Below, one piece after another: positions 36,594 through 62,633 of a stretch of DNA of 64,000 nucleotides (its first letter is position 1; every line of letters begins with the position of its first letter). Source of the stretch: Halopseudomonas aestusnigri (GTDB lineage Bacteria > Pseudomonadota > Gammaproteobacteria > Pseudomonadales > Pseudomonadaceae); assembly GCF_002197985.1 (NCBI RefSeq), contig NZ_NBYK01000008.1, forward strand, positions 85,334 to 149,333, read 5' to 3'. The translations under genes were made by a program, and so were the position numbers. The notes below the pieces were generated by a model, which was not told the DNA's origin, ran no database searches, and was given only the letters and a program-made list of their open reading frames with translations.

Positions 36594-36890
36594 CTTGCTC
36601 TCAGGCTTTCTCGGCGGATCAGAGACGACGTTGTCGTCAATCTGCTGGACCTTGCCGCCTCGGGCCATGAATTCTTCGATCTGACGGGCCAGCATCTCGC
36701 GCTCACGCTCCTTGGCTTCCATCGACGCCCCTTCCAGGTCATCCGCCGAGGACGATGCCTTCTTGCGTGACTTGCCGCTGGAAACCGGTTCGCCGTCGTC
36801 ACCGTCATCGCTGTCGTCTACCACATCATCCTGATCGTCGACCTCGGAGTCGTCCATACCATCCAGATCGTCGTCCAGATCATCACTCAT
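36573..36890 (-). CDS. sutA: RNA-polymerase-binding regulator SutA
   Basis: 105 aa. N-terminal tail of Asp/Glu/Ser (about 1-45), a short basic patch (KSRKK), one central helix (AKEREREMLARQIEEFMARGG) and a C-terminal tail ending SKYGSRPI. This matches P. aeruginosa SutA, an intrinsically disordered factor that binds RNA polymerase beta and boosts rRNA and maintenance-gene transcription in slow growth. Position between the xerC operon and the amtB-comM group is also that of P. aeruginosa sutA. The acidic tail is highly biased in base use. Confidence 0.88.
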   Translation of the reverse strand: MSDDLDDDLDGMDDSEVDDQDDVVDDSDDGDDGEPVSSGKSRKKASSSADDLEGASMEAKEREREMLARQIEEFMARGGKVQQIDDNVVSDPPRKPESKYGSRPI

Positions 36891-36998
36891 GCCTGAATCC
36901 TCACAGTGGAAAACAGGCTATATATAGTTCATCGAGGGGATTTGGCTAGTCTTGCGAAAAAAAATTTTCGCCTGTAGTGCCTGCCCTAGACAGCCAGC

Positions 36999-37841
36999 CT
37001 ACAACACAGCCCCCTCGCTCAGGCGCGCCAGCTGATCCAGATCAGTCTGCACCCCGGACGTTTCCCGAATGCGGGTCAGAATCTCGCGCTTGAGGGCGAT
37101 AAATTCCGGCTCCAGCTTCATATCCTGATGCCGCACCTTGGGCAGCGGCACCTCGTAGACGCTGTCGATTCGCCCCGGACGCGGCGCCATGAGCACGATG
37201 CGGGTGCCCAGATAAATCGCCTCCTCCACATCGTGGGTGACGAACAGGATGGTGCTCTTCTCCAGCCGGTGTACATGCAGGATCAGATCGTGCATCACCT
37301 CGCGGGTCTGCGCATCGAGCGCGCCGAAGGGCTCATCCATCAGCAGAAAATCCGGCCGCGGCATCAGCGCGCGGGCAATCGCCACCCGCTGCTGCATGCC
37401 GCCGGACAGCTGACTGGGATAGGCGCCGGCAAAGTTCTTCAGCCCCATCAGGTTGAGCAGCGCATCGGCGCGGCCGCTGGCGGCCTCAACGTCGGACTGG
37501 CTGTGTACCGAGTCGGCGATGACCTTGAGCTGGCGGCAGAACTTGATGTTCTCGGTGACCGTCAGCCACGGGTAGAGACTGTAGTGCTGGAATACCATGG
37601 CGCGGTCCACACCGGGGCCGTCAATCGGCTCGCTACGCAGCAGAATGTCGCCGCTGCTGTGGGTTTCCAGCCCGGCCATGATGCGCAGCAGGGTCGACTT
37701 GCCGCAGCCGGAAGCGCCGACAAAGGTGATGAACTCGTTGGGCTGCACTTCGAGGTTGACGTCGCGCAGCGCCTCGATGGTCTGGTTGCGGGCGGCGAAC
37801 TGCTTGCCCACGTTGCGAATGCTGATACAGGACTGGTCCAT
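36999..37841 (-). CDS. ABC transporter ATPase, nitrate/taurine type
   Basis: 280 aa. Walker A GASGCGKST, Q-loop with FQHYSLYPWLTV, signature LSGGMQQRVAIARAL, Walker B FLLMDEPFGALDAQT and H-loop FVTHDVEEA. Belongs to the SsuB/TauB/NrtD group. AGAGGT lies 7 nt before the ATG. It is the last gene of the eleven-gene operon that begins with a guanidine-I riboswitch; together with the permease just upstream and the binding protein at the operon's start it makes one importer split across the operon. Confidence 0.92.
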   Translation of the reverse strand: MDQSCISIRNVGKQFAARNQTIEALRDVNLEVQPNEFITFVGASGCGKSTLLRIMAGLETHSSGDILLRSEPIDGPGVDRAMVFQHYSLYPWLTVTENIKFCRQLKVIADSVHSQSDVEAASGRADALLNLMGLKNFAGAYPSQLSGGMQQRVAIARALMPRPDFLLMDEPFGALDAQTREVMHDLILHVHRLEKSTILFVTHDVEEAIYLGTRIVLMAPRPGRIDSVYEVPLPKVRHQDMKLEPEFIALKREILTRIRETSGVQTDLDQLARLSEGAVL

Positions 37842-37845
37842 GGGC

Positions 37846-38688
37846 TTACCTCTTCTGCCAGTGGAAGGCGCGGCGACCGAGCCAGCGGAACGCCTGGTCG
37901 GTCAACAGACCGATGAGGCCGATCAGCAGGATGCCGGCGAAAATCTTGTCGGTGTGCATATAGCGCTGGGCGCGCAGAATGGCGTAACCAAGCCCCGAGT
38001 TGGAAGCCACCAGTTCGGCCACTACCAGATAGGTCCAGGCCCAGCCGCAGGTGATGCGAAGGGTATCGAGCAAGGCCGGACGGGCCGAGGGCAGCACCAC
38101 CAGGCGGATGATCTCGCTGCGCGAGGCACCCATGGTCTGCGCCGCTTCAATCTGCGCCATCGGTACCCGGCGAATGTCTTCTGCGGCCATCAGCACCATC
38201 TGGAAGAATGTACCGATGAAGATGATGAGAATCTTCGAGCCCTCGCCGATCCCGACCCAGAGCATCACCAGTGGAATAAAGGCGACCGCCGGCATATAGC
38301 GGATAAAGTCGATCAGTGGCTCCAGCGTTGCCTGCACCGGCTTGTAGGTGCCCAGATACAGCCCCAGCGGCAGAGCGATCGTGGCCGAGAGCAGAAAGCC
38401 GGCCATGACCCGGTACACGCTGATCCAGATGTCGTCCCACAGGCCGTCTTCCTGCCACCAGCTGATAACCCGCTCCAGCACCGCGCCGGGGCCGGGCATG
38501 AACAGCGGATCGTTCAGACCGAGCGCGCTGTACAGCCACCAGATGAAAAACGGCGCGGCCAGACCAAAGGCGGTCAGCAGGGCACTGGTGCGTGAGGACA
38601 GGCTGCCGCGCACGACCCACCAGCGCGAGCGGGGTTTGTGCTTGACTGCAACCGCGGGGGTTTCGGGTAGGGGGGCTGGTGCATTCAT
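37846..38688 (-). CDS. ABC transporter permease, nitrate/taurine type
   Basis: 280 aa with about six membrane helices and the permease EAA loop (MAQIEAAQTMGASRSEIIRLVVLPSA). A hydrophilic N-terminal tail of about 30 residues precedes the first helix (LTAFGLAAPFFIWWLYSALG). Overlaps the preceding 252-aa gene by 4 bp (ATGA) and is 4 bp from the ATPase gene. Inner-membrane channel of the operon's importer. Confidence 0.92.
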   Translation of the reverse strand: MNAPAPLPETPAVAVKHKPRSRWWVVRGSLSSRTSALLTAFGLAAPFFIWWLYSALGLNDPLFMPGPGAVLERVISWWQEDGLWDDIWISVYRVMAGFLLSATIALPLGLYLGTYKPVQATLEPLIDFIRYMPAVAFIPLVMLWVGIGEGSKILIIFIGTFFQMVLMAAEDIRRVPMAQIEAAQTMGASRSEIIRLVVLPSARPALLDTLRITCGWAWTYLVVAELVASNSGLGYAILRAQRYMHTDKIFAGILLIGLIGLLTDQAFRWLGRRAFHWQKR

Positions 38689-39443
38689 ACCAGTGTCTCC
38701 GTGGTGAGGTGCTGCAGACGCGGCAACGAGGTCGGGCGCCAGCCATTCTCGGGTGGATAGATACCGACCCAGGCGACCGGCAGCGCATTCCAGCGCGCCG
38801 GATCGGCGGGTACGGAAAACAGGCCGCCGGTGGCGGCGGGCAAGGTGCTGAACAAAATCTGCCAGGGCCGCGCGCCGCCCTGAATACGGCCGAAGGTCAG
38901 CTCGCAGCCAAGCAGGTGTTCAGCGCTGCGGGCGCAGTCGTGTTGCAGGTATTCGGACAGAGAACGGCCACGGCCCAGACGCAAGGGGCGGTCCGCGGCG
39001 AACATAAAGTAGTCACCGGCGCGCAGCAGGCAGGCCTGACGACCGGAGCCGTCGGCGCTCTGCAACCAGGTTTCTGCGACCGGGCCGCGCGAGTCCGGCA
39101 AACGGTGCCAGATTTCCAGATAGCTGTCGTCCAGTGCGGTCTCGTGCACCTCATCACTGCTGACGAACTGCATGTTGCCAATATCAGTGCCGCTGTCCGG
39201 GTGAAAGTCGATGATGCGGTGCCACTGGCAACGGCCAAGAGTGGCCTCGGTCAGGCCGACAAAGCCCGCCTGTGCAGCGCGCTCAAACGGCAGTTTCGGT
39301 GTCGGGTCGGGAATCCGCAGATCCGCGTGCAGATGCGCACTCTGCAGCCAGAACACCCGGGTTGTGGTGTCCTCGGTGCCGTCGGACAGACGCAGCAGCG
39401 TGCGCTGCCAGACGCCGTGATAGGCCTCGGGAACGGCGTTCAT
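38685..39443 (-). CDS. unrecognised 252-aa protein in the guanidine-riboswitch operon
   Basis: No family recognised. The protein has no signal peptide or membrane segment and a beta-rich pattern. WQRTLLRLSDGTEDTTTRVFWLQSAHLHADLRIP at the N-terminus and CQWHRIIDFHPDSGTDIGNMQF in the middle hold several His/Asp/Trp that could line a ligand pocket. The second half (YLEIWHRLPDSRGPVAETWLQS) looks like a repeat of the first, as in double-barrel folds. Start by ATGA overlap with the MBL gene, so translation is coupled; a longer frame to 39584 lies inside that gene. Its place between hydrolase and transporter genes suggests a role with the same substrate. Confidence 0.75.
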   Translation of the reverse strand: MNAVPEAYHGVWQRTLLRLSDGTEDTTTRVFWLQSAHLHADLRIPDPTPKLPFERAAQAGFVGLTEATLGRCQWHRIIDFHPDSGTDIGNMQFVSSDEVHETALDDSYLEIWHRLPDSRGPVAETWLQSADGSGRQACLLRAGDYFMFAADRPLRLGRGRSLSEYLQHDCARSAEHLLGCELTFGRIQGGARPWQILFSTLPAATGGLFSVPADPARWNALPVAWVGIYPPENGWRPTSLPRLQHLTTETLV

Positions 39444-40222
39444 GCATGGTACTCCGGGAAGCGTTTGAGGGTGCGCCAGAACGCCATGTCGTGGTTGGGC
39501 CACAGCTGCGCGCCGGTCTCGCCGGCGATGCGTTTCAGCTTGCGGATGCTCTCCAGCGCCATGTCCTCGCGGTCGCGCCAGCACAGGCCGGGCGCGATTT
39601 CATCATCGAGGTTTTCAGTCAGGTCAGCCGCATCACCGGTGAGGATCACCGGCGCGCCGGTCGGCAGCTCGATCATCAGCGACATGTGCCCGGCGGTGTG
39701 GCCGGGGGTATTGATTGCCCGCAGGCCGGGCAGCAGATCGTACTCATCCTGCTGCAGGCGCCAGCGCACATTGCCGGCGAAGTCGTCGGCGAAATAAGCG
39801 TTATCAGCCGGCTCCCGGGCAGCGTGCAACTCGTCTTCGTGAACGTGTACTTCCGCGCCGCAGACGTCGCACAGGCCACCGGCGTGATCAAAGTGCAGGT
39901 GACTGAGAAACACCATGTCGATGTCCTTGCAGGTCAGCCCGAGCTTTGCCAGATGAGCTTCGAGGCGCTGCTCTTCGCTCATCTGCGGCGGCCCCATGGG
40001 AAACTCCACCGGGTCGTACCAGCGGGCGCGTAGCGCAGGATCGCTCAGCTTGTTGTAGTCACAGCCGACGTCGAACAGCACCCGGCCCTGTCTGGTCTCG
40101 ATCAGAAAGGCCAGAATCGGCGCCTCGATCTGCACGCCGTGGCCACGGCCACGGGTCGAGATTGATTTGTCGTAATGGTGGGTCGCGGTCAGCAGCGGCC
40201 AGAGTTTCTGCACCTGAGTCAT
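39440..40222 (-). CDS. MBL-fold hydrolase, N-acyl-homoserine-lactonase family
   Basis: 260 aa metallo-beta-lactamase fold. Metal motif HLHFDHAGG (about 107-115), later His in NTPGHTAGHMSL, Asp in LTGDAADL and His in LWPNHDM. Belongs to the AttM/AiiA-like lactonase group, which open lactone or related rings. The operon context (importer, creatininase- and isochorismatase-like hydrolases, guanidine riboswitch) argues for a catabolic ring-opening or ester hydrolysis rather than quorum quenching. 4-bp overlaps with both neighbours. Confidence 0.88.
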   Translation of the reverse strand: MTQVQKLWPLLTATHHYDKSISTRGRGHGVQIEAPILAFLIETRQGRVLFDVGCDYNKLSDPALRARWYDPVEFPMGPPQMSEEQRLEAHLAKLGLTCKDIDMVFLSHLHFDHAGGLCDVCGAEVHVHEDELHAAREPADNAYFADDFAGNVRWRLQQDEYDLLPGLRAINTPGHTAGHMSLMIELPTGAPVILTGDAADLTENLDDEIAPGLCWRDREDMALESIRKLKRIAGETGAQLWPNHDMAFWRTLKRFPEYHA

Positions 40223-40866
40223 GCTGCCTCCTGCAGTGCGCTGAGCAGCGCCGCACTGTCACAGGTCTCGCCAAAGATGCCGCCCTCGACACCGATCATC
40301 GCCAGCGCGGCGGCGTGCAGCTCGGGATGCGCGGAGGCGCAGGCGTCGCTGACGGTCAGACAGTTGAAGCCGCGGTCAATCGCGCTGCGCAGGGTCGAGC
40401 TGACACAGACCTCGGTGGTTACCCCGGTAATGATCAGCGTGTCGATACCGCGGCTGCGCAGGATCAGTTCCAGGTCGGTGGCAGCAAAGGCGCAGTAGCC
40501 GGGCTTGTCGATCACCGGCTCGCCGACCTGTGGCTGCAGCTCGTCGATCAGGTCATGGCCGTACTCGCCACGCACCAGCAGCCGACCGAGTGGGCCCGCT
40601 GCGCCAATCGGTGCGCCACTGCGCTCGGCGCGGATGCGTTTCCAGGCAGGCAGGTCGGACAAATCGCTGCGATGCCCTTCGCGGGTGTGCACCACCAGCA
40701 TGCCGCTGGCCCGCGCCGCTGCAAGCAGGCGCTGCTGAGCCGGAATCGGCGCACGCAGGCAGGCGATATCCAGCCCGGCCTGATCGGCGTAGCCGCCAGG
40801 GGCGCAGAAGTCGCGCTGCATGTCGATCAGCAGCAGCGCGGTACGTGACGGCAACAGCGGCAGCAT
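40219..40866 (-). CDS. isochorismatase-like cysteine hydrolase
   Basis: 215 aa. Triad Asp in LLIDMQRDF, Lys in VIDKPGYCAF and nucleophile Cys in GVTTEVCVSSTLR. Family members split amide or urea-type C-N bonds, among them nicotinamidase, ureidoacrylate hydrolase, biuret hydrolase and guanylurea hydrolase of metformin degraders. Because the operon starts with a guanidine-I riboswitch, a guanidine- or urea-type amide is an attractive substrate, by inference. Start at ATG 40866, one base after the creatininase stop. Confidence 0.88.
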   Translation of the reverse strand: MLPLLPSRTALLLIDMQRDFCAPGGYADQAGLDIACLRAPIPAQQRLLAAARASGMLVVHTREGHRSDLSDLPAWKRIRAERSGAPIGAAGPLGRLLVRGEYGHDLIDELQPQVGEPVIDKPGYCAFAATDLELILRSRGIDTLIITGVTTEVCVSSTLRSAIDRGFNCLTVSDACASAHPELHAAALAMIGVEGGIFGETCDSAALLSALQEAA

Positions 40867-40867
40867 C

Positions 40868-41638
40868 TCAGGCCTCCAGCTTGAATTCGTGACGCACCGC
40901 AGCGGCGATGCCGGTGGTGATGTCATCGGCCATGCGTGCGCCCTTCTCGGCGGTCGACCCCAGCGCCGAGGACAGCACCCCGGACGGCGGCACCCACTCG
41001 GTGCGGGTCGGGTACATGTCGTAGGGCGGAAAGTCGGCCGGCGGATCGTTCGGGATCTTGTCGAGGCTGACCAGATGCGGCAGGTAATGCAGCATCAGCG
41101 AGGTCTCGATTACCGCGGCGTGCTCCAGCGCAAAGCCGGGGAAGCCGTCGGGGAAGATATCGTCCAGCGTTTCTTCCTTGCAGAAATCCCAGTGCTCCAG
41201 ACGCATGACTTCAAGATCAGAGGCCGGCCCCAACTCGCGCAGCGCCAGCTGGATGCCCTCGGTGACAAACCAGGTGTTCTCGTAGTGCCCCAGCACCAGC
41301 ACCAGGCGCTTGACGCCGTGGCGGGCGAACTCGCGTACCGCATCCTGCACCAGGGCAATGAGGGTTGCGCCATCCAGGCTGGTGGTGCCGCAAAAGTGCT
41401 GGCCGCCGCCGCACTTGGGCTGCGACTTGTAGCCGTAGGCCAGTGCCGGCGCGACGATGCCGCCGATCTGCGCGGCCACATCGGCGCTCAGCGCGGTCGA
41501 CAGCAGCGCATCGGTACCCAGCGGCAGGTGCGGGCCGTGCTGCTCGGTCGCGCCGCAGGGCAGAAACACCACCGCACCCTGCTCGACCCGTTGCTGGTAT
41601 TCGACCCAGCTGATCTGATCCATATAGACACTTGCCAT
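40868..41638 (-). CDS. creatininase family hydrolase
   Basis: 256 aa. CGATEQHGPHLPLGTDALLS contains the metal-binding Glu, His and Asp of the creatininase family, and LGHYENT a further His/Glu. Creatininase itself opens the cyclic guanidine creatinine to creatine, so presence downstream of a guanidine-sensing RNA is striking. Other members act on different amides (for example formamidopyrimidines), so the substrate is not certain. TGATG overlap with the EamA gene. Confidence 0.9.
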   Translation of the reverse strand: MASVYMDQISWVEYQQRVEQGAVVFLPCGATEQHGPHLPLGTDALLSTALSADVAAQIGGIVAPALAYGYKSQPKCGGGQHFCGTTSLDGATLIALVQDAVREFARHGVKRLVLVLGHYENTWFVTEGIQLALRELGPASDLEVMRLEHWDFCKEETLDDIFPDGFPGFALEHAAVIETSLMLHYLPHLVSLDKIPNDPPADFPPYDMYPTRTEWVPPSGVLSSALGSTAEKGARMADDITTGIAAAVRHEFKLEA

Positions 41639-42519
41639 CAGGACAATCTCCTCGTCAGTTGCACGGGTGAACGCTCGGGCCAGCCGGCCATCACCGCCGC
41701 CAGCGTGACCATGCCGGCCCCCAGCCAGGTTCGCGGTGCGATCACCTCATCGTTGAACCAGGCCACCGACAGCACGGCGGCGATCAATTCGAAGACCACC
41801 AGCACGGCAGCGCGGCTGGCCTCCAGGTGGGTCACGCCGTATTGCGCGCCCAGGGTGGCGAGCAGCAGCCAACCCACCGCAAACAGTGCAATCCACAGCC
41901 AGATCGTCGGCGCCAGCGCCGGCAACCCCTTGGCAAACAGCAGGCAGGCGGCACCGGCAAACAGGCTGCTGCCAACGAAGGCGGCGACCGTTTTGCTCAA
42001 CATCGGCACCCGATCCGCCGCCCGCGTCGCCAGGTTGTTCAGGGCGAAGCCCAACCCCGCGCTCAGCGCCAGCCAGTCGATCGCAGTGAGACTGGCGAAG
42101 GTTTGCGCATTGACGCCCAGCGTCAGGCCGATGCCCCCGAGCGCCAGCACCAGCGCGGCGATACGCAGCGCGGTCAGCCGCTCACACAGCAGCAGCCAGC
42201 CGCCGAGCACGCCCCACACCGGCGCCAGATAGAACAGCAACATCACCCGCACCAGATCCTCGGCCAGCGACAGCGATGACAGCAGCGCAGCATTCGCCCA
42301 ACCGCCAAACAGCACAATGCCCACCAGCCCCCAGCGCTGCTGCCACCAGCCAGCGCGCTGCCAATACAGCAGTGGCAGGGCAACCAGCGCGATCAAGCCG
42401 TAACTGGCGAGCACCATGGGGAAACCGTCGATACCCTGCCCGGCGAACCACTGCAGCGGCAGCCAACTGGTGCCCCAGAGCACCGTTGCCAGGATCAGTA
42501 CCCATTCCGGACGCAGCAT
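41638..42519 (-). CDS. EamA/DMT-family transporter
   Basis: 293 aa with ten membrane helices in two EamA repeats (about 5-135 and 145-280). ATG at 42519 shares one base with the SDR stop (TGATG). The frame is open far upstream (to 43512), but that part is a shadow of the SDR genes. DMT carriers export metabolites; guanidine-I riboswitches often control DMT-superfamily guanidine exporters of the SMR type, though this is the larger EamA type. It may export the substrate or a toxic intermediate. Confidence 0.88.
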   Translation of the reverse strand: MLRPEWVLILATVLWGTSWLPLQWFAGQGIDGFPMVLASYGLIALVALPLLYWQRAGWWQQRWGLVGIVLFGGWANAALLSSLSLAEDLVRVMLLFYLAPVWGVLGGWLLLCERLTALRIAALVLALGGIGLTLGVNAQTFASLTAIDWLALSAGLGFALNNLATRAADRVPMLSKTVAAFVGSSLFAGAACLLFAKGLPALAPTIWLWIALFAVGWLLLATLGAQYGVTHLEASRAAVLVVFELIAAVLSVAWFNDEVIAPRTWLGAGMVTLAAVMAGWPERSPVQLTRRLS

Positions 42520-43274
42520 CAGCCACCCATCCAAGCGCCACCGTTGGCGCCGAGCACCTGCCCGGTAAAGAAACTCGCTGCCGGTGACAGCAGGAAGCAG
42601 ACCGCCGCGGCAATCTCCTCCGGCTGTCCGAGGCGCGCAGCCGGAATGGCCAGCTCCTTGGCAATCCACTCTTCGCTCATGTGCTCCAGCGAGACCATCG
42701 CGGTCTCCACCGGCCCGGGCGCCACCGCGTTGATGCGAATAGCGGGCGCAAACTCGCGCGCCAGCGCCTTGGTCATGCCGATCACACCGGCCTTGGCGGT
42801 GCAGTAGGCAACGTAGTTTTCGCGTCCCAGCTGACCCAGCTCGGAGGCGATATTGACGATGGCCCCGCGCCCCGCCCCGCTCATGCTTTCCAGCGCGCAG
42901 CGGCAGCAGCGGTAGACGCCATCCAGATCGACCGCCATGATCCGCCGCCAGTCGTCTTCCGAGGTGTCCAGAAAGCCCTGCTCCTGAATGATCCCGGCGT
43001 TGTTGACCAGCCCGTGCAGGGGGCCGGTGGCGGTGATGCAGGCGAACATTTCCTCCACCGCGTCCGGGTCGCTGACATCCGCTTCGATGGCCACCGCCCG
43101 GCCACCGGCCGAGCGAATCTGCTCCACCAGATCGGCGCTGGCTCCGGCCTGGCCCAGGTGGTTGATCCAGACCTCCGCGCCCTGCCCCGCCAGCATCAGC
43201 GCGCAGGCGCGGCCAATGCCGGTAGCCGCACCGGTGACGAGAATGCGCTGGCCCTTCAATTCGACCTTCAGCAT
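42519..43274 (-). CDS. SDR-family oxidoreductase (second of two)
   Basis: 251 aa. TGAATGIG binds NAD(P), NNAG stabilises the core, and the active site has Ser in NIASELGQ and YCTAK (Tyr/Lys). Classical SDR oxidising or reducing an alcohol/ketone. It overlaps the other SDR by one base (TGATG). Two tandem SDRs after a desaturase-like oxygenase would suit stepwise oxidation of a hydroxylated intermediate. Acidic residue after beta-2 not clearly assigned, so cofactor preference is open. Confidence 0.9.
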   Translation of the reverse strand: MLKVELKGQRILVTGAATGIGRACALMLAGQGAEVWINHLGQAGASADLVEQIRSAGGRAVAIEADVSDPDAVEEMFACITATGPLHGLVNNAGIIQEQGFLDTSEDDWRRIMAVDLDGVYRCCRCALESMSGAGRGAIVNIASELGQLGRENYVAYCTAKAGVIGMTKALAREFAPAIRINAVAPGPVETAMVSLEHMSEEWIAKELAIPAARLGQPEEIAAAVCFLLSPAASFFTGQVLGANGGAWMGG

Positions 43275-44065
43275 CAGTGCATGACCTCCCCGCGACTGAC
43301 CACAATGGCCTGCCCGGTAATGGCGGCCGAGGCCGGCGCGCCGAGAAACAGAAAGGTGCCGGCCAGATCGGCCGGAGTGAGCAATTCGGGAATCGCCTGC
43401 GCGGCAAGGATGTGTTCCAGCTCCTCGGCCTCGCTGCGGCCACTGCCCTGCGCCATGTTGCGCAGGGACGCCATCGCGGCCTCGGTGCCGACCCAGCCGG
43501 GGCACACGGCATTAACGCGGATACCCTGCCCGCCCAGCTCCCACGCCAATGAACGGGTCAGGCCGATCACCGCGTGCTTGCTGGCAACGTAGGCGGAGAA
43601 TCCGGCCACCGCACTCAGCCCCCAGATCGAGGACTGGTTGATCACGCTGCTGCCCTTGCCGAGCAGCGGCAGCAGTGCGCGGGTCAGGCGCAGCATCGAC
43701 ACCACGTTGTTATCCAGCTGGTGCTGCCAGCGCCGGTTGGCGTCGGCGGCGCTATCACTTAGCGGCGTTGGCTGTTCCATACCCGCGTTATTGATCAACA
43801 CAGCCACCTGCGGCTGACGCTGGGCCAGTCGGCTGGCGTAATCGGATACCGCCGCATCATCGTTCAGATCCAGCACCCGGCCGTGCACCTGCGTCACCGC
43901 CGAGAGCTGCTCGACGGTCGCAGCCAGCGCCGGCGCATTGCGGTCGACCAGCTCCAGCCGCGCGCCCTGCTCAGCAAACGCCTGCGCCAGACCCAGCCCG
44001 ATGCCACTGGCGGCACCGGTAATCACCACGGTGCGGCCCTGATAATCCAGCGTCTGCATGCTCAT
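43274..44065 (-). CDS. SDR-family oxidoreductase (first of two)
   Basis: 263 aa. Cofactor motif TGAASGIG, Asp in LELVDRNAP at the end of beta-2 (NAD preference), NNAGM, and active site SSIWGLSAVAGFSAYVASK (Ser, Tyr, Lys). The two SDRs are only moderately similar and so are not a recent duplication. Overlaps the desaturase gene by 4 bp (ATGA). Confidence 0.9.
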   Translation of the reverse strand: MSMQTLDYQGRTVVITGAASGIGLGLAQAFAEQGARLELVDRNAPALAATVEQLSAVTQVHGRVLDLNDDAAVSDYASRLAQRQPQVAVLINNAGMEQPTPLSDSAADANRRWQHQLDNNVVSMLRLTRALLPLLGKGSSVINQSSIWGLSAVAGFSAYVASKHAVIGLTRSLAWELGGQGIRVNAVCPGWVGTEAAMASLRNMAQGSGRSEAEELEHILAAQAIPELLTPADLAGTFLFLGAPASAAITGQAIVVSRGEVMH

Positions 44066-45087
44066 ACCGCCGTCAGGAAGGACACGCCCACCGCGCCGTA
44101 GAAGTTCTCGGCACGCTTGGGACCATCAACGAATTCGCCGTAGTCATCGCTCAGCACCCGGCGGACGCGGTGGCGGTGGAAGCTGCTGAGCAGCTCGCTC
44201 ATCGGCACTACTTGACGGTAGGCATCGCCGTACAGCTCTGCGTGCAGGTTGGGCAGGCGATACCAGGGCGCGACGGGTTTCTCGTGGTGGGCGTTGTGAT
44301 AGGCGAAGTTGAGCAGCAGCAGGTTGAGCGACGGCCAGCGCAGCGACACCACATTGCTGAAGGTATTGAGCTGCTCATAGGCGCGGTCACGCAGCTTGTC
44401 GGCCGGGATCTTGCCGTCCTCTTCCAGCACCGCGAAAGCGTCGTAGGTGTGCTGATAGGCGTCGGCAAACCGCAGCACGGTGACCATGATCAGCCAGGCG
44501 ACGCAGTAGAGCACCAGCGCACTGAACGACAGCCAGCCGAGCAGGGCAAACAGCGCGGTACGGATCAGCAGCACCGTCAGCACCTTGCCGCGGCGGGCAC
44601 GGTGTTTCTCGCTGTGGCTGATAAACGGCAACAGCACCACGTAGAAGTGCATGATCAGCTCGACCGCCGGAACATAGGCCCACTCAAGCGCGAGAATCAG
44701 CTTGCGTGCCCAGTTCGGCAGGCCGTTGATGAATGCCTTGCTGTCGAAGGTGATGACGTCGGCACGGTCGACGTGATGGCGCATGTGCTTGCGCCGCAGG
44801 TCCTGAAAGTCGGCGTAGCAGCCGCCGGTCATCCAGCTGAAGACCTCGCCGGCCAGCGCGTTGTGGGCTGGCTTGCTGAAAATGGTGCCGTGGGCAAATT
44901 CGTGAATCAGGTAGGCGCCGATGATCATCGCGTGCGCCAGCAACAGCAGCCCGCCCAGCTTGGCCAGCCAGAACGGGGTCAGCAGCAGACCGAGGCCGAT
45001 CAGGTAGCCGCCGACGCTGTAGGCGATCGCCAGACTGTTCCAGACCCGGCCATCGGCGTAACGGTAAAGTAGTTTGGACGTGGACAT
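44062..45087 (-). CDS. membrane fatty-acid-desaturase-like diiron enzyme
   Basis: 341 aa. Three histidine boxes of the desaturase/hydroxylase superfamily: HEFAHG, RKHMRHH and HNAHHEKP, set between hydrophobic pairs (about 20-60 and 170-205). Such enzymes use O2 and two irons to desaturate or hydroxylate CH2 groups. Being the second gene of a guanidine-riboswitch operon rather than near lipid genes, it may hydroxylate an alkyl chain attached to the imported compound. Substrate inference only. Confidence 0.88.
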   Translation of the reverse strand: MSTSKLLYRYADGRVWNSLAIAYSVGGYLIGLGLLLTPFWLAKLGGLLLLAHAMIIGAYLIHEFAHGTIFSKPAHNALAGEVFSWMTGGCYADFQDLRRKHMRHHVDRADVITFDSKAFINGLPNWARKLILALEWAYVPAVELIMHFYVVLLPFISHSEKHRARRGKVLTVLLIRTALFALLGWLSFSALVLYCVAWLIMVTVLRFADAYQHTYDAFAVLEEDGKIPADKLRDRAYEQLNTFSNVVSLRWPSLNLLLLNFAYHNAHHEKPVAPWYRLPNLHAELYGDAYRQVVPMSELLSSFHRHRVRRVLSDDYGEFVDGPKRAENFYGAVGVSFLTAV

Positions 45088-45138
45088 GATTCCTCCGCAA
45101 GTCCCGATCAGGGCAGGCGCAAGCGCCTGCCCGTGGTC

Positions 45139-46146
45139 TTACTGGGTAAGCTCAGTGACAAAACTGGCGTCGAAGGTGTCGGCAAAATCCGGGATCGCCG
45201 GGATTTGCTTGTTCTTCAGCAGCAGGTCGGCGATCACCGCACCACTGCCGTAGAACGACGTGGTTTCGCTGGACTCGACAAAGTTCTGGCCCATCTCGGA
45301 CAGCGGGATGTTGTAGACGCCTTCCATCTGCTCCAGCGCCTCGGCACCGCTCACGCCCAGCACCTTGCCGATGATCTCTGCGCTCTCTTCCGGGTGCGCC
45401 TGCATGTATTCCAGGCCGGCCTGATAGCCCTTGATCATGGCGGTGATGGCTTCGGGGTTTTCCTCGATCTGCTCTTCGGTGAAGGCCAGCACGTCGGTGA
45501 TCAGGCCCGGTGCGTCCTTGGAGGAATACACCACGTGGAATTTGTCGCCGCCGCCCATGGCGAGGATCTGCGATACGTTCGGCTCGTAGGTCACGCCAAT
45601 CGGCAGACTGCCGGAAGCCATTGCGCTGGGAATGCCTTCAGGCGTCATGTTGACCGACTGGATGTCCTTCTCGCCCATGCCGTTGATCTGCAGCGCGTAG
45701 GCCAGCAGAAAGTCGGACGGTGACAGCGGGTTGAAACCCACCTGTTTGCCCTTGAAATCGGCGACGCTGGTGATGGATTTGTCGGCAACGATGGCGTCAC
45801 CGCCGTAGGAGAAGTCGATCGGCATCACCACCCGGTGCGGCAGGCCCTTGGCCACCGAACCGACCACCTGGTCGTAGGTCAGCATCGCGCCATCGACAGC
45901 GTTACCCGCCATGGCAGACGGCAGCAGCGCCGGGTCATTGAAGAACTGCAACTCGACATTCAGACCAAACTGGTCGTACAGATCGAGTTTGTCAGCCACA
46001 TAGAACGGACCGTAACCGGCCCACACAACGGTACCGATGGTCATGGAGTCGGCGGCGTGTGCGGCAACAGGAGACAGGGCGGCAGCGGCAGCCAGACTGA
46101 TGCCGGCCAGGGACTTGCGGACAAAGCTGAAGCGTGGGGCGGTCAT
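45139..46146 (-). CDS. ABC transporter substrate-binding protein (NitT/TauT type)
   Basis: 335 aa with a Sec signal peptide (about 1-32, ending AHAADS). NMT1/TauA-like two-lobe fold: TVVWAGYGPFYVADKLDLYDQFGLNVE, FFNDPALLPSAMAGNAVDGA, GVTYEPNVSQILAMGG. GGAG 8 nt before ATG 46146. First gene of the operon, 53 nt after the guanidine-I aptamer; relatives in other guanidine operons import guanidine or related nitrogen compounds. Permease and ATPase are at the distal end of the operon, 7 kb away. Confidence 0.93.
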   Translation of the reverse strand: MTAPRFSFVRKSLAGISLAAAAALSPVAAHAADSMTIGTVVWAGYGPFYVADKLDLYDQFGLNVELQFFNDPALLPSAMAGNAVDGAMLTYDQVVGSVAKGLPHRVVMPIDFSYGGDAIVADKSITSVADFKGKQVGFNPLSPSDFLLAYALQINGMGEKDIQSVNMTPEGIPSAMASGSLPIGVTYEPNVSQILAMGGGDKFHVVYSSKDAPGLITDVLAFTEEQIEENPEAITAMIKGYQAGLEYMQAHPEESAEIIGKVLGVSGAEALEQMEGVYNIPLSEMGQNFVESSETTSFYGSGAVIADLLLKNKQIPAIPDFADTFDASFVTELTQ

Positions 46147-46198
46147 GGGTACAACTCCTACACAGTGAGAAAAGGCGCACGGGGACAACGTCGTCATG

Positions 46199-46296
46199 AC
46201 GGTCTCCCGGGCTTTTATCCCGCCGTGTAGCCCTCATTCCTTGAGAGCCGGAAAACTCTCGGACCAGACACTTGCCACGCAAGCCGGAACCCTAGT
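46199..46296 (-). ncRNA. guanidine-I riboswitch (ykkC subtype 1)
   Basis: Reading the minus strand: CTAGGGTTCCGG (5' stem), variable hairpin CTTGC-GTG-GCAAG, CTGGTCCGAGAG (46256-46267), and ACGGCGGGATAAAAGCCC followed by GGGAGA (46203-46226). These are the invariant blocks of the ykkC RNA; the A-rich AAAAGCCCGGGAGA binds guanidinium in subtype 1. It ends 53 nt before the ABC binding-protein ATG. Guanidine binding normally turns expression on. Subtype-2 ykkC RNAs (ppGpp, PRPP) share blocks, but their typical genes are absent here. Confidence 0.88.
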
Positions 46297-46329
46297 TCGC
46301 CTGAGTACCACTCCAGTGTGTGATGCGTC

Positions 46330-62556: not shown

Positions 62557-62633
62557 GCACTCGTAGCTCAGCTGGATAGAGTACTGCCCTCCGAAGGCAG
62601 GGGTCGTGGGTTCGAATCCCGCCGAGTGCGCCA
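62557..62633 (+). tRNA. tRNA-Arg (anticodon CCG)
   Basis: 77 nt. Acceptor stem GCACTCG/CGAGTGC, D-loop AGCTGGAT, anticodon stem CTGCC/GGCAG with loop CTCCGAA (anticodon CCG), TTCGAAT T-loop, encoded CCA end. Reads Arg codon CGG. Confidence 0.97.

Follow-up and report, generated by a model that had tools for sequence, protein, structure and literature searches.

Why does a guanidine-I riboswitch precede eleven genes that include none of the enzymes of the guanidine carboxylase operon? The locus lies in a stretch of 64,000 nucleotides of Halopseudomonas aestusnigri (contig NZ_NBYK01000008.1, positions 85,334 to 149,333; hereafter the window), where all eleven genes are on the minus strand and run from 46146 to 36999 behind the aptamer. 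They code for the binding protein (SBP), permease (PERM) and ATPase (ATP) of an importer, a desaturase-type membrane diiron enzyme (FAD), two short-chain dehydrogenases (SDR1 and SDR2), an EamA-type carrier, a creatininase-like metallohydrolase (CRN), a cysteine amidohydrolase (ISO), a metallo-beta-lactamase-fold hydrolase (MBL) and a protein that matches no family in Pfam or NCBIfam (UNK). The cluster is real and conserved, and it is very likely an operon that releases guanidine for nitrogen scavenging; judging from homology and context, it is probably a guanidine-induced catabolic operon that frees guanidine oxidatively from a substituted guanidine. A preliminary description of the locus had recognised no known guanidine enzyme. 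This holds for guanidine carboxylase (Gca), carboxyguanidine hydrolase (CgdA/B) and allophanate hydrolase (AtzF), none of which was found among the eleven genes with Pfam and NCBIfam, but UNK groups with the lyase MgdL and ISO with a guanylurea hydrolase.

Distribution and gene content of the cluster

The sequence analysis shows the gene content, riboswitch family, homologies, conservation and neighbourhood of the cluster; two samples were used. Among 144 genomes, that of H. aestusnigri included, a strong UNK homologue (E < 1e-50) is present in 18; a guanidine-I match stands at the cluster in 17 of these, and the cluster of the eighteenth (G019) is interrupted by a contig end. For the second sample, a species-level genome collection was scanned with an alignment of FAD, and the best 80 of 145 encoding stretches were kept as loci (numbered with L). 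They come from Pseudomonas, Stutzerimonas, Halopseudomonas, Paraburkholderia, Thiomonas, Thiobacillus, Sideroxydans, Gallionella, Aquabacterium, Acidithiobacillus and others, and in L041 (Halopseudomonas oceani) the eleven proteins are 90.9-99.2% identical to those of the window. The aptamer could be sought in 77 loci, the contigs of L058, L093 and L102 ending too close upstream. A covariance model was derived from 15 aptamers, of which 14 belong to clusters of this kind and one to contig C3 of the H. aestusnigri genome, and with it the aptamer was found at the head of the cluster in 67 of the 77 (72 matches minus the window and four second elements). In 66 of these it ends 29-95 bases ahead of the start of SBP homology; the other, L086, has no SBP. 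Since this model rests on cluster elements, its results were checked with that of Rfam in 15 non-Pseudomonas loci; the two agreed in 15/15 (10 with aptamer, 5 without). The co-occurrence with RF00442 that the preliminary description wished to see scored is thus the rule, and homologous clusters do not usually lack the riboswitch. The cluster is widespread and conserved, more than expected by chance.

Gene sets were counted in 64 loci, leaving out the 16 with too little flanking sequence; this sample is dominated by pseudomonads, and kinship was ignored. FAD is present in all of them by selection and SBP in 63, while the EamA carrier occurs in 50. CRN and MBL are found together in 35 loci, CRN only in 17, MBL only in 12, and no locus has neither (Fisher 0.026). 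All loci in which SDR1 (44/44) or SDR2 (48/48) was seen also have CRN, and the ISO homologue of L088, L090 and L115 is on the opposite strand. We read the core as importer, FAD and a ring-opening hydrolase, usually joined by a lyase and an acylguanidine amidase, with an SDR step coupled to CRN. Since CRN and MBL resemble alternative ring-opening hydrolases, this pattern suggests a small cyclic substrate or intermediate. Small sets also exist: L095 has SBP, FAD, MBL, UNK, PERM and ATP, and in the smallest variant (L086 9733-13500; L036 is from the same genome) a guanidine-I element is followed by FAD, EamA, MBL and UNK.

Homologies of UNK, ISO and the other enzymes

In Vreelandella boliviensis, MgdH hydroxylates methylguanidine and MgdL splits N-(hydroxymethyl)guanidine; MgdL was modelled as a beta-barrel with catalytic residues D49 and R51 (PMC12508155). 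Weak UNK matches pointed to a related 313-residue protein whose gene adjoins that of a 2-oxoglutarate (2-OG) dioxygenase (L022), and of 82 genomes in a single genus, three match an 18-base primer stretch printed in PMC12508155. The translated primers agree with the ends of both proteins in L140, where an AtzF-like gene then follows and MgdL has Asp and Arg as residues 49 and 51; we regard this locus as that of V. boliviensis or of a very close relative. With the L140 MgdL, UNK shares 28% identity (66.6 bits, E 9e-18 for a single comparison), and hhalign gave 99.5% for the UNK family against it. MgdL D49 and R51 align to UNK D41 and R43, of which the Asp is kept in 62/62 loci and the Arg in 61/62, and W12, W74, E110 and W112 are likewise kept in all 62. 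The AF2 model of UNK (pLDDT 89.5) is made mainly of strands and has a beta-barrel fold; its only PDB matches reaching E 0.001 are YLR301w (E 4.8e-4) and a lipocalin-like protein (E 5.1e-4). UNK is an MgdL homologue, and we propose that it acts as an N-(hydroxyalkyl)guanidine lyase. In addition, an MgdL-like gene lies behind a 2-OG dioxygenase gene in L022 (362-2394), L121, L124, L132 and L135, from other pseudomonads and other families (with Pfam assignment for L022), so that an mgdHL-like module seems to extend beyond the halophiles named in PMC12508155.

The best plasmid matches of ISO (tblastn, 66.5%) are cysteine hydrolases of three Pseudomonas plasmids, including pMET-2 of Pseudomonas mendocina MET, to whose enzyme ISO is 65% identical over 205 residues. 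The pMET-2 gene adjoins a nucleoside deaminase gene and, because this neighbour fits, its product is very probably BB_00025, a purified guanylurea hydrolase with very low biuret activity (PMC9800807). Unlike the ISO gene, it sits with the nucleoside deaminase and an importer, and no FAD, SDR, CRN or UNK is present in the 12.6 kb shown. The Asp-Lys-Cys triad of ISO is kept in all readable loci (D 61/61, K 60/60, C 60/60). BiuH depends on K145 and Q215 (PMC5806882, PMC7948467); at the first position ISO has Tyr in 57 of 60 loci and Thr in three, at the second Glu in 59/59. The pMET-2 enzyme also has Tyr and Glu and a Pantoea homologue Lys and Gln, one proven enzyme having been compared. The Glu of ISO may hold the guanidinium group, and by its sequence ISO would be an amidohydrolase of the guanylurea hydrolase type. 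An assignment as biuret hydrolase was rejected, as ISO scores 277.1 bits with NF050097 against a cut-off of 370 and replaces both BiuH residues.

The nine tested histidines of FAD are kept in 80/80 loci. Its longest NCBIfam alignment is with GntB, the arginine hydroxylase of guanitoxin synthesis (NF041365), also of the desaturase type, but at 22.4 bits against a cut-off of 380 FAD is not a member of that family. CRN is above the creatininase cut-off (solved creatininase structures: 1j2t and 3a6e), and the eight compared active-site positions are kept, apart from E34, which is Gly in one of 57 loci (L058). Unlike creatininase, it is set among oxidative enzymes and has Phe (54 loci) or Tyr (three) at the position of W174 (P. 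putida creatininase numbering), although one solved creatininase sequence likewise has Phe there. The importance of W174 and the roles of the compared residues are assumed by us here. The seven metal-site positions of MBL are kept in 55/55 loci.

Operon layout, riboswitch and link to guanidine carboxylase

Seven of the ten gene junctions overlap, as read off the coordinates (Table 1): FAD/SDR1, ISO/MBL, MBL/UNK and UNK/PERM by four bases, SDR1/SDR2, SDR2/EamA and EamA/CRN by one. Gaps of 1, 4 and 51 bases separate CRN/ISO, PERM/ATP and SBP/FAD, respectively. Together with the aptamer, this bears out the one-strand, riboswitch-headed operon with mostly overlapping junctions of the preliminary description, and Pfam concurs with its gene classes for ten genes; its bounds are right for the eleven genes but not for the 46296 end, as the aptamer extends ten bases further. 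The start of SBP was placed at 46146, and 46197 is also allowed by the list of open reading frames. A consensus scan of 36850-37050 gave no terminator after the last gene, past which a GCGAAAA...TTTTCGC repeat with a T run was seen by eye. Elsewhere in the window there is a tRNA gene (62557-62630, plus strand; RF00005, 65 bits).

Table 1. Features of the guanidine-I operon in the window
Feature	Coordinates	Strand	Evidence
Guanidine-I riboswitch aptamer (RF00442)	46202..46306	-	84.9 bits, gathering 63, full-length match
Candidate anti-aptamer strand CUGUGUAG, abutting the Shine-Dalgarno of SBP	46158..46165	-	8/8 pairs with aptamer CUACACGG; weak evidence
SBP, NMT1-type periplasmic binding protein of importer	45139..46146	-	PF09084, 85.2 bits
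FAD, desaturase-type membrane diiron enzyme, proposed hydroxylase	44062..45087	-	PF00487, 115.3 bits
SDR1, short-chain dehydrogenase	43274..44065	-	PF13561, 170.4 bits
SDR2, short-chain dehydrogenase	42519..43274	-	PF13561, 207.6 bits
EamA-type membrane carrier	41638..42519	-	PF00892, 50.6 bits
CRN, creatininase-like metallohydrolase, Phe at W174 position	40868..41638	-	TIGR04448, 381.6 bits (cut-off 235); creatininase structures; residues
ISO, putative guanylurea-hydrolase-type cysteine amidohydrolase	40219..40866	-	65% identity to pMET-2 cysteine hydrolase; Tyr/Glu pocket residues
MBL, metallo-beta-lactamase-fold hydrolase, lactonase-like	39440..40222	-	PF00753, 54.9 bits
UNK, MgdL-family beta-barrel protein, proposed N-(hydroxyalkyl)guanidine lyase	38685..39443	-	Homology to MgdL; Asp-x-Arg kept; AF2 model
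PERM, importer permease	37846..38688	-	PF00528, 99.3 bits
ATP, importer ATPase	36999..37841	-	PF00005, 112.8 bits

The aptamer has the invariant core common to 14 other guanidine-I elements. In the window leader, its segment CUACACGG is able to pair in 8/8 positions with CUGUGUAG, next to the Shine-Dalgarno sequence, and at least 7/8 pairs are possible in 41 of the 48 aptamers with ACACGG, the window counted. Shuffled window spacers reach 7/8 in 20% and 8/8 in 1% of cases, and the mean fraction of shuffled spacers reaching the observed match is 0.22. Pairing matches are weak in the other 20 aptamers, which are without ACACGG; only 5/22 rows of other loci reach 7/8 pairs, and the pairing is mostly not kept in betaproteobacterial loci. 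Folds of whole leaders were not unusually stable (z -0.81 and -1.62). The anti-aptamer helix is a fair candidate, no more, for translational control in Pseudomonadaceae. In V. boliviensis the guanidine-I riboswitch binds guanidine but does not bind methylguanidine (PMC12508155), so by analogy the window RNA is likely to sense guanidine itself.

A second guanidine-I element of the same genome, on contig C3, precedes a binding protein, permease and ATPase of its own, two CgdA/B-type genes and a carboxylase of 1204 residues. NCBIfam calls the products of the two genes urea amidolyase associated proteins, which we take to be CgdA/B, the carboxyguanidine hydrolase subunits of PMC12508155. The carboxylase scores above the cut-off of TIGR02712 ("urea carboxylase") and, because of this operon context, is taken for a guanidine carboxylase; no AtzF appeared in the 1.2 kb of sequence available past it. 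The binding protein of the C3 operon is only 27% identical to that of the window, so the window importer probably carries something other than guanidine. Gca and/or AtzF are in view in 32/80 loci, which is a minimum because the view ends 10 kb from the cluster on either side. Moreover, a Gca-like gene (rows with at least 59% identity and more than 1000 bits; G014 and G027 have fragments, which were excluded) is present in 18/18 genomes of the first sample that have the cluster, against 40/126 of the others. The guanidine carboxylase operon (Gca, CgdA/B, AtzF; PMC12508155, PMC12186494) resembles the window operon in riboswitch class and ATP-binding cassette importer and adjoins the cluster in many loci, but shares no enzyme with it.

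In L107 the cluster is directly followed by genes for P-II and an ammonium transporter, as would suit nitrogen scavenging. These and Gcw_chp are the three annotated neighbour proteins of that locus, and no substrate-specific neighbour was recognised among the groups of other open reading frames listed across the 80 loci (at most 46), a weak absence given that beyond these three the N-termini only were considered. A gene for a xylose-isomerase-like TIM-barrel protein (L111 7905-8762; PF01261, 35.4 bits) lies between those of AtzF and SBP in L106, L107, L108, L111, L113, L114, L116 and L119, and at another place in L117. Guanidine-II riboswitches adjoin guanidine carboxylase genes in L111 (2449-2493, plus strand, 34.7 bits) and L093 (8230-8275, minus strand, 32.5 bits; gathering 32).

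Proposed pathway and alternatives

We infer the catalytic steps, their order, transport and regulation as follows. SBP, PERM and ATP would import an N-substituted guanidine other than guanidine, and FAD would hydroxylate the carbon adjoining a guanidino nitrogen. UNK could then split the hemiaminal to guanidine and an aldehyde; on a second branch, an SDR would oxidise it and ISO would cut the resulting acylguanidine to guanidine and an acid. CRN or MBL would open a ring. Free guanidine would switch the riboswitch on and be consumed by the enzymes of the C3 operon. That a substituted guanidine is imported, hydroxylated and hydrolysed so that guanidine is set free had been suggested in the preliminary description, and homology and context favour it (the resemblance of UNK and ISO to guanidine-releasing enzymes, the Gca and AtzF neighbours and the C3 operon); the release of urea, its other suggestion, found no specific support. 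The guanidine carboxylase operon of V. boliviensis, which contains mgdH-mgdL (PMC12508155), also has guanidine-I at its head, a hydroxylase, an MgdL-type lyase and an importer, and supplies guanidine carboxylase with guanidine. It differs in that its hydroxylase is a 2-OG dioxygenase and not of the desaturase type, in that the window has additional SDRs, CRN, ISO and MBL, and in that the carboxylase genes of the H. aestusnigri genome are on another contig.

Several observations weigh against this scheme. UNK and ISO are each absent in 8/64 complete loci, and MBL has no clear role in it. Searches of PDB sequences in which FAD or alignment A1 served as query gave no match and no characterised close relative, and the AF2 model of FAD (pLDDT 57.9) is too poor for use. 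Kinship inflates the co-occurrence with Gca, which is 13/13 against 12/24 within the own genus (Fisher 0.0023). As for the signal, PMC12186494 lists methylguanidine together with guanidine as inducer of guanidine riboswitches in general, whereas PMC12508155 finds guanidine-I blind to methylguanidine. Finally, no guanidine-I element was found at the head of 10 of the 77 testable loci. Eight of them (L106, L107, L108, L111, L113, L114, L116, L119) are downstream of AtzF on the same strand, and in L096 AtzF and Gca adjoin on the opposite strand. The tenth, L062 (Tepidiphilus succinatimandens), keeps all eleven genes. No guanidine-I was found upstream of them even when matches up to E 10 were admitted, and neither Gca nor AtzF is in view, the one related gene nearby being that of a guanidine-type SBP; control of this cluster may have been lost or rewired.

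The readings differ mainly in the substrate. Our own guess, a tentative one, is creatinine or a similar cyclic acylguanidine; failing that, it would be an alkylguanidine, either methylguanidine by itself or some other. All enzyme classes of the operon find a place in a creatinine route: FAD would produce 5-hydroxycreatinine (creatol), an SDR the dione, CRN or MBL would open the ring, ISO would release methylguanidine, and FAD with UNK would convert the latter to guanidine. From creatol, the route to methylguanidine passes through dione and oxamate steps. Creatol is a known methylguanidine precursor (PMC3775425), yet in this complete form we hold the oxidative creatinine pathway to be doubtful. 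If true, methylguanidine would have an enzymatic source, and a diiron enzyme of the desaturase type would take part in releasing guanidine. No description of either was found in the openly licensed literature; the desaturase treated in PMC12186494 is NapI. Creatinine might also be used in the textbook manner, CRN giving creatine and then urea and sarcosine, with guanidine merely a side signal. The creatininase score and the kept active-site positions of CRN would suit this route, but Phe or Tyr replaces W174 in 57/57 loci, CRN is absent in 12/64 complete loci, and UNK, ISO and the guanidine carboxylase neighbours are left unexplained, which makes it improbable, although no search aimed at creatinase was made.

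A simpler reading is demethylation of methylguanidine only, with FAD in place of MgdH, UNK as MgdL and the hydrolases acting on by-products. It would agree with the homology of UNK and with the small sets L095 and L086; we nevertheless rate it unlikely, because it accounts neither for CRN or MBL in every complete locus nor for the tie of SDR1 and SDR2 to CRN. A guanylurea or biguanide pathway, in which ISO, close to a probable purified guanylurea hydrolase, would be the key enzyme, appears no less improbable than the textbook route: complete loci without ISO exist and, by chemical reasoning, guanylurea hydrolysis requires neither an oxygenase nor SDRs. The cluster could instead detoxify or synthesise a guanidino compound, with EamA as an exporter, as its presence in most complete loci would allow. 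A binding-protein importer at both operon ends and the guanidine carboxylase and allophanate hydrolase genes near many loci argue for catabolism, and we give this last reading very little credence.

For the preferred reading, oxidative release of guanidine from a substituted guanidine, what is new in the light of the openly licensed literature is the type of oxygenase and the gene set, the principle being already known. The natural origin of free guanidine is an open question (review PMC12186494), and the cluster is a concrete and widespread candidate source. Across gamma- and betaproteobacteria and Acidithiobacillus, it links guanidine-I control with an oxygenase of the desaturase type, an enzyme resembling creatininase and two proteins homologous to enzymes that release guanidine, and it gives functional leads for proteins annotated merely as "hypothetical protein" or "cysteine hydrolase".

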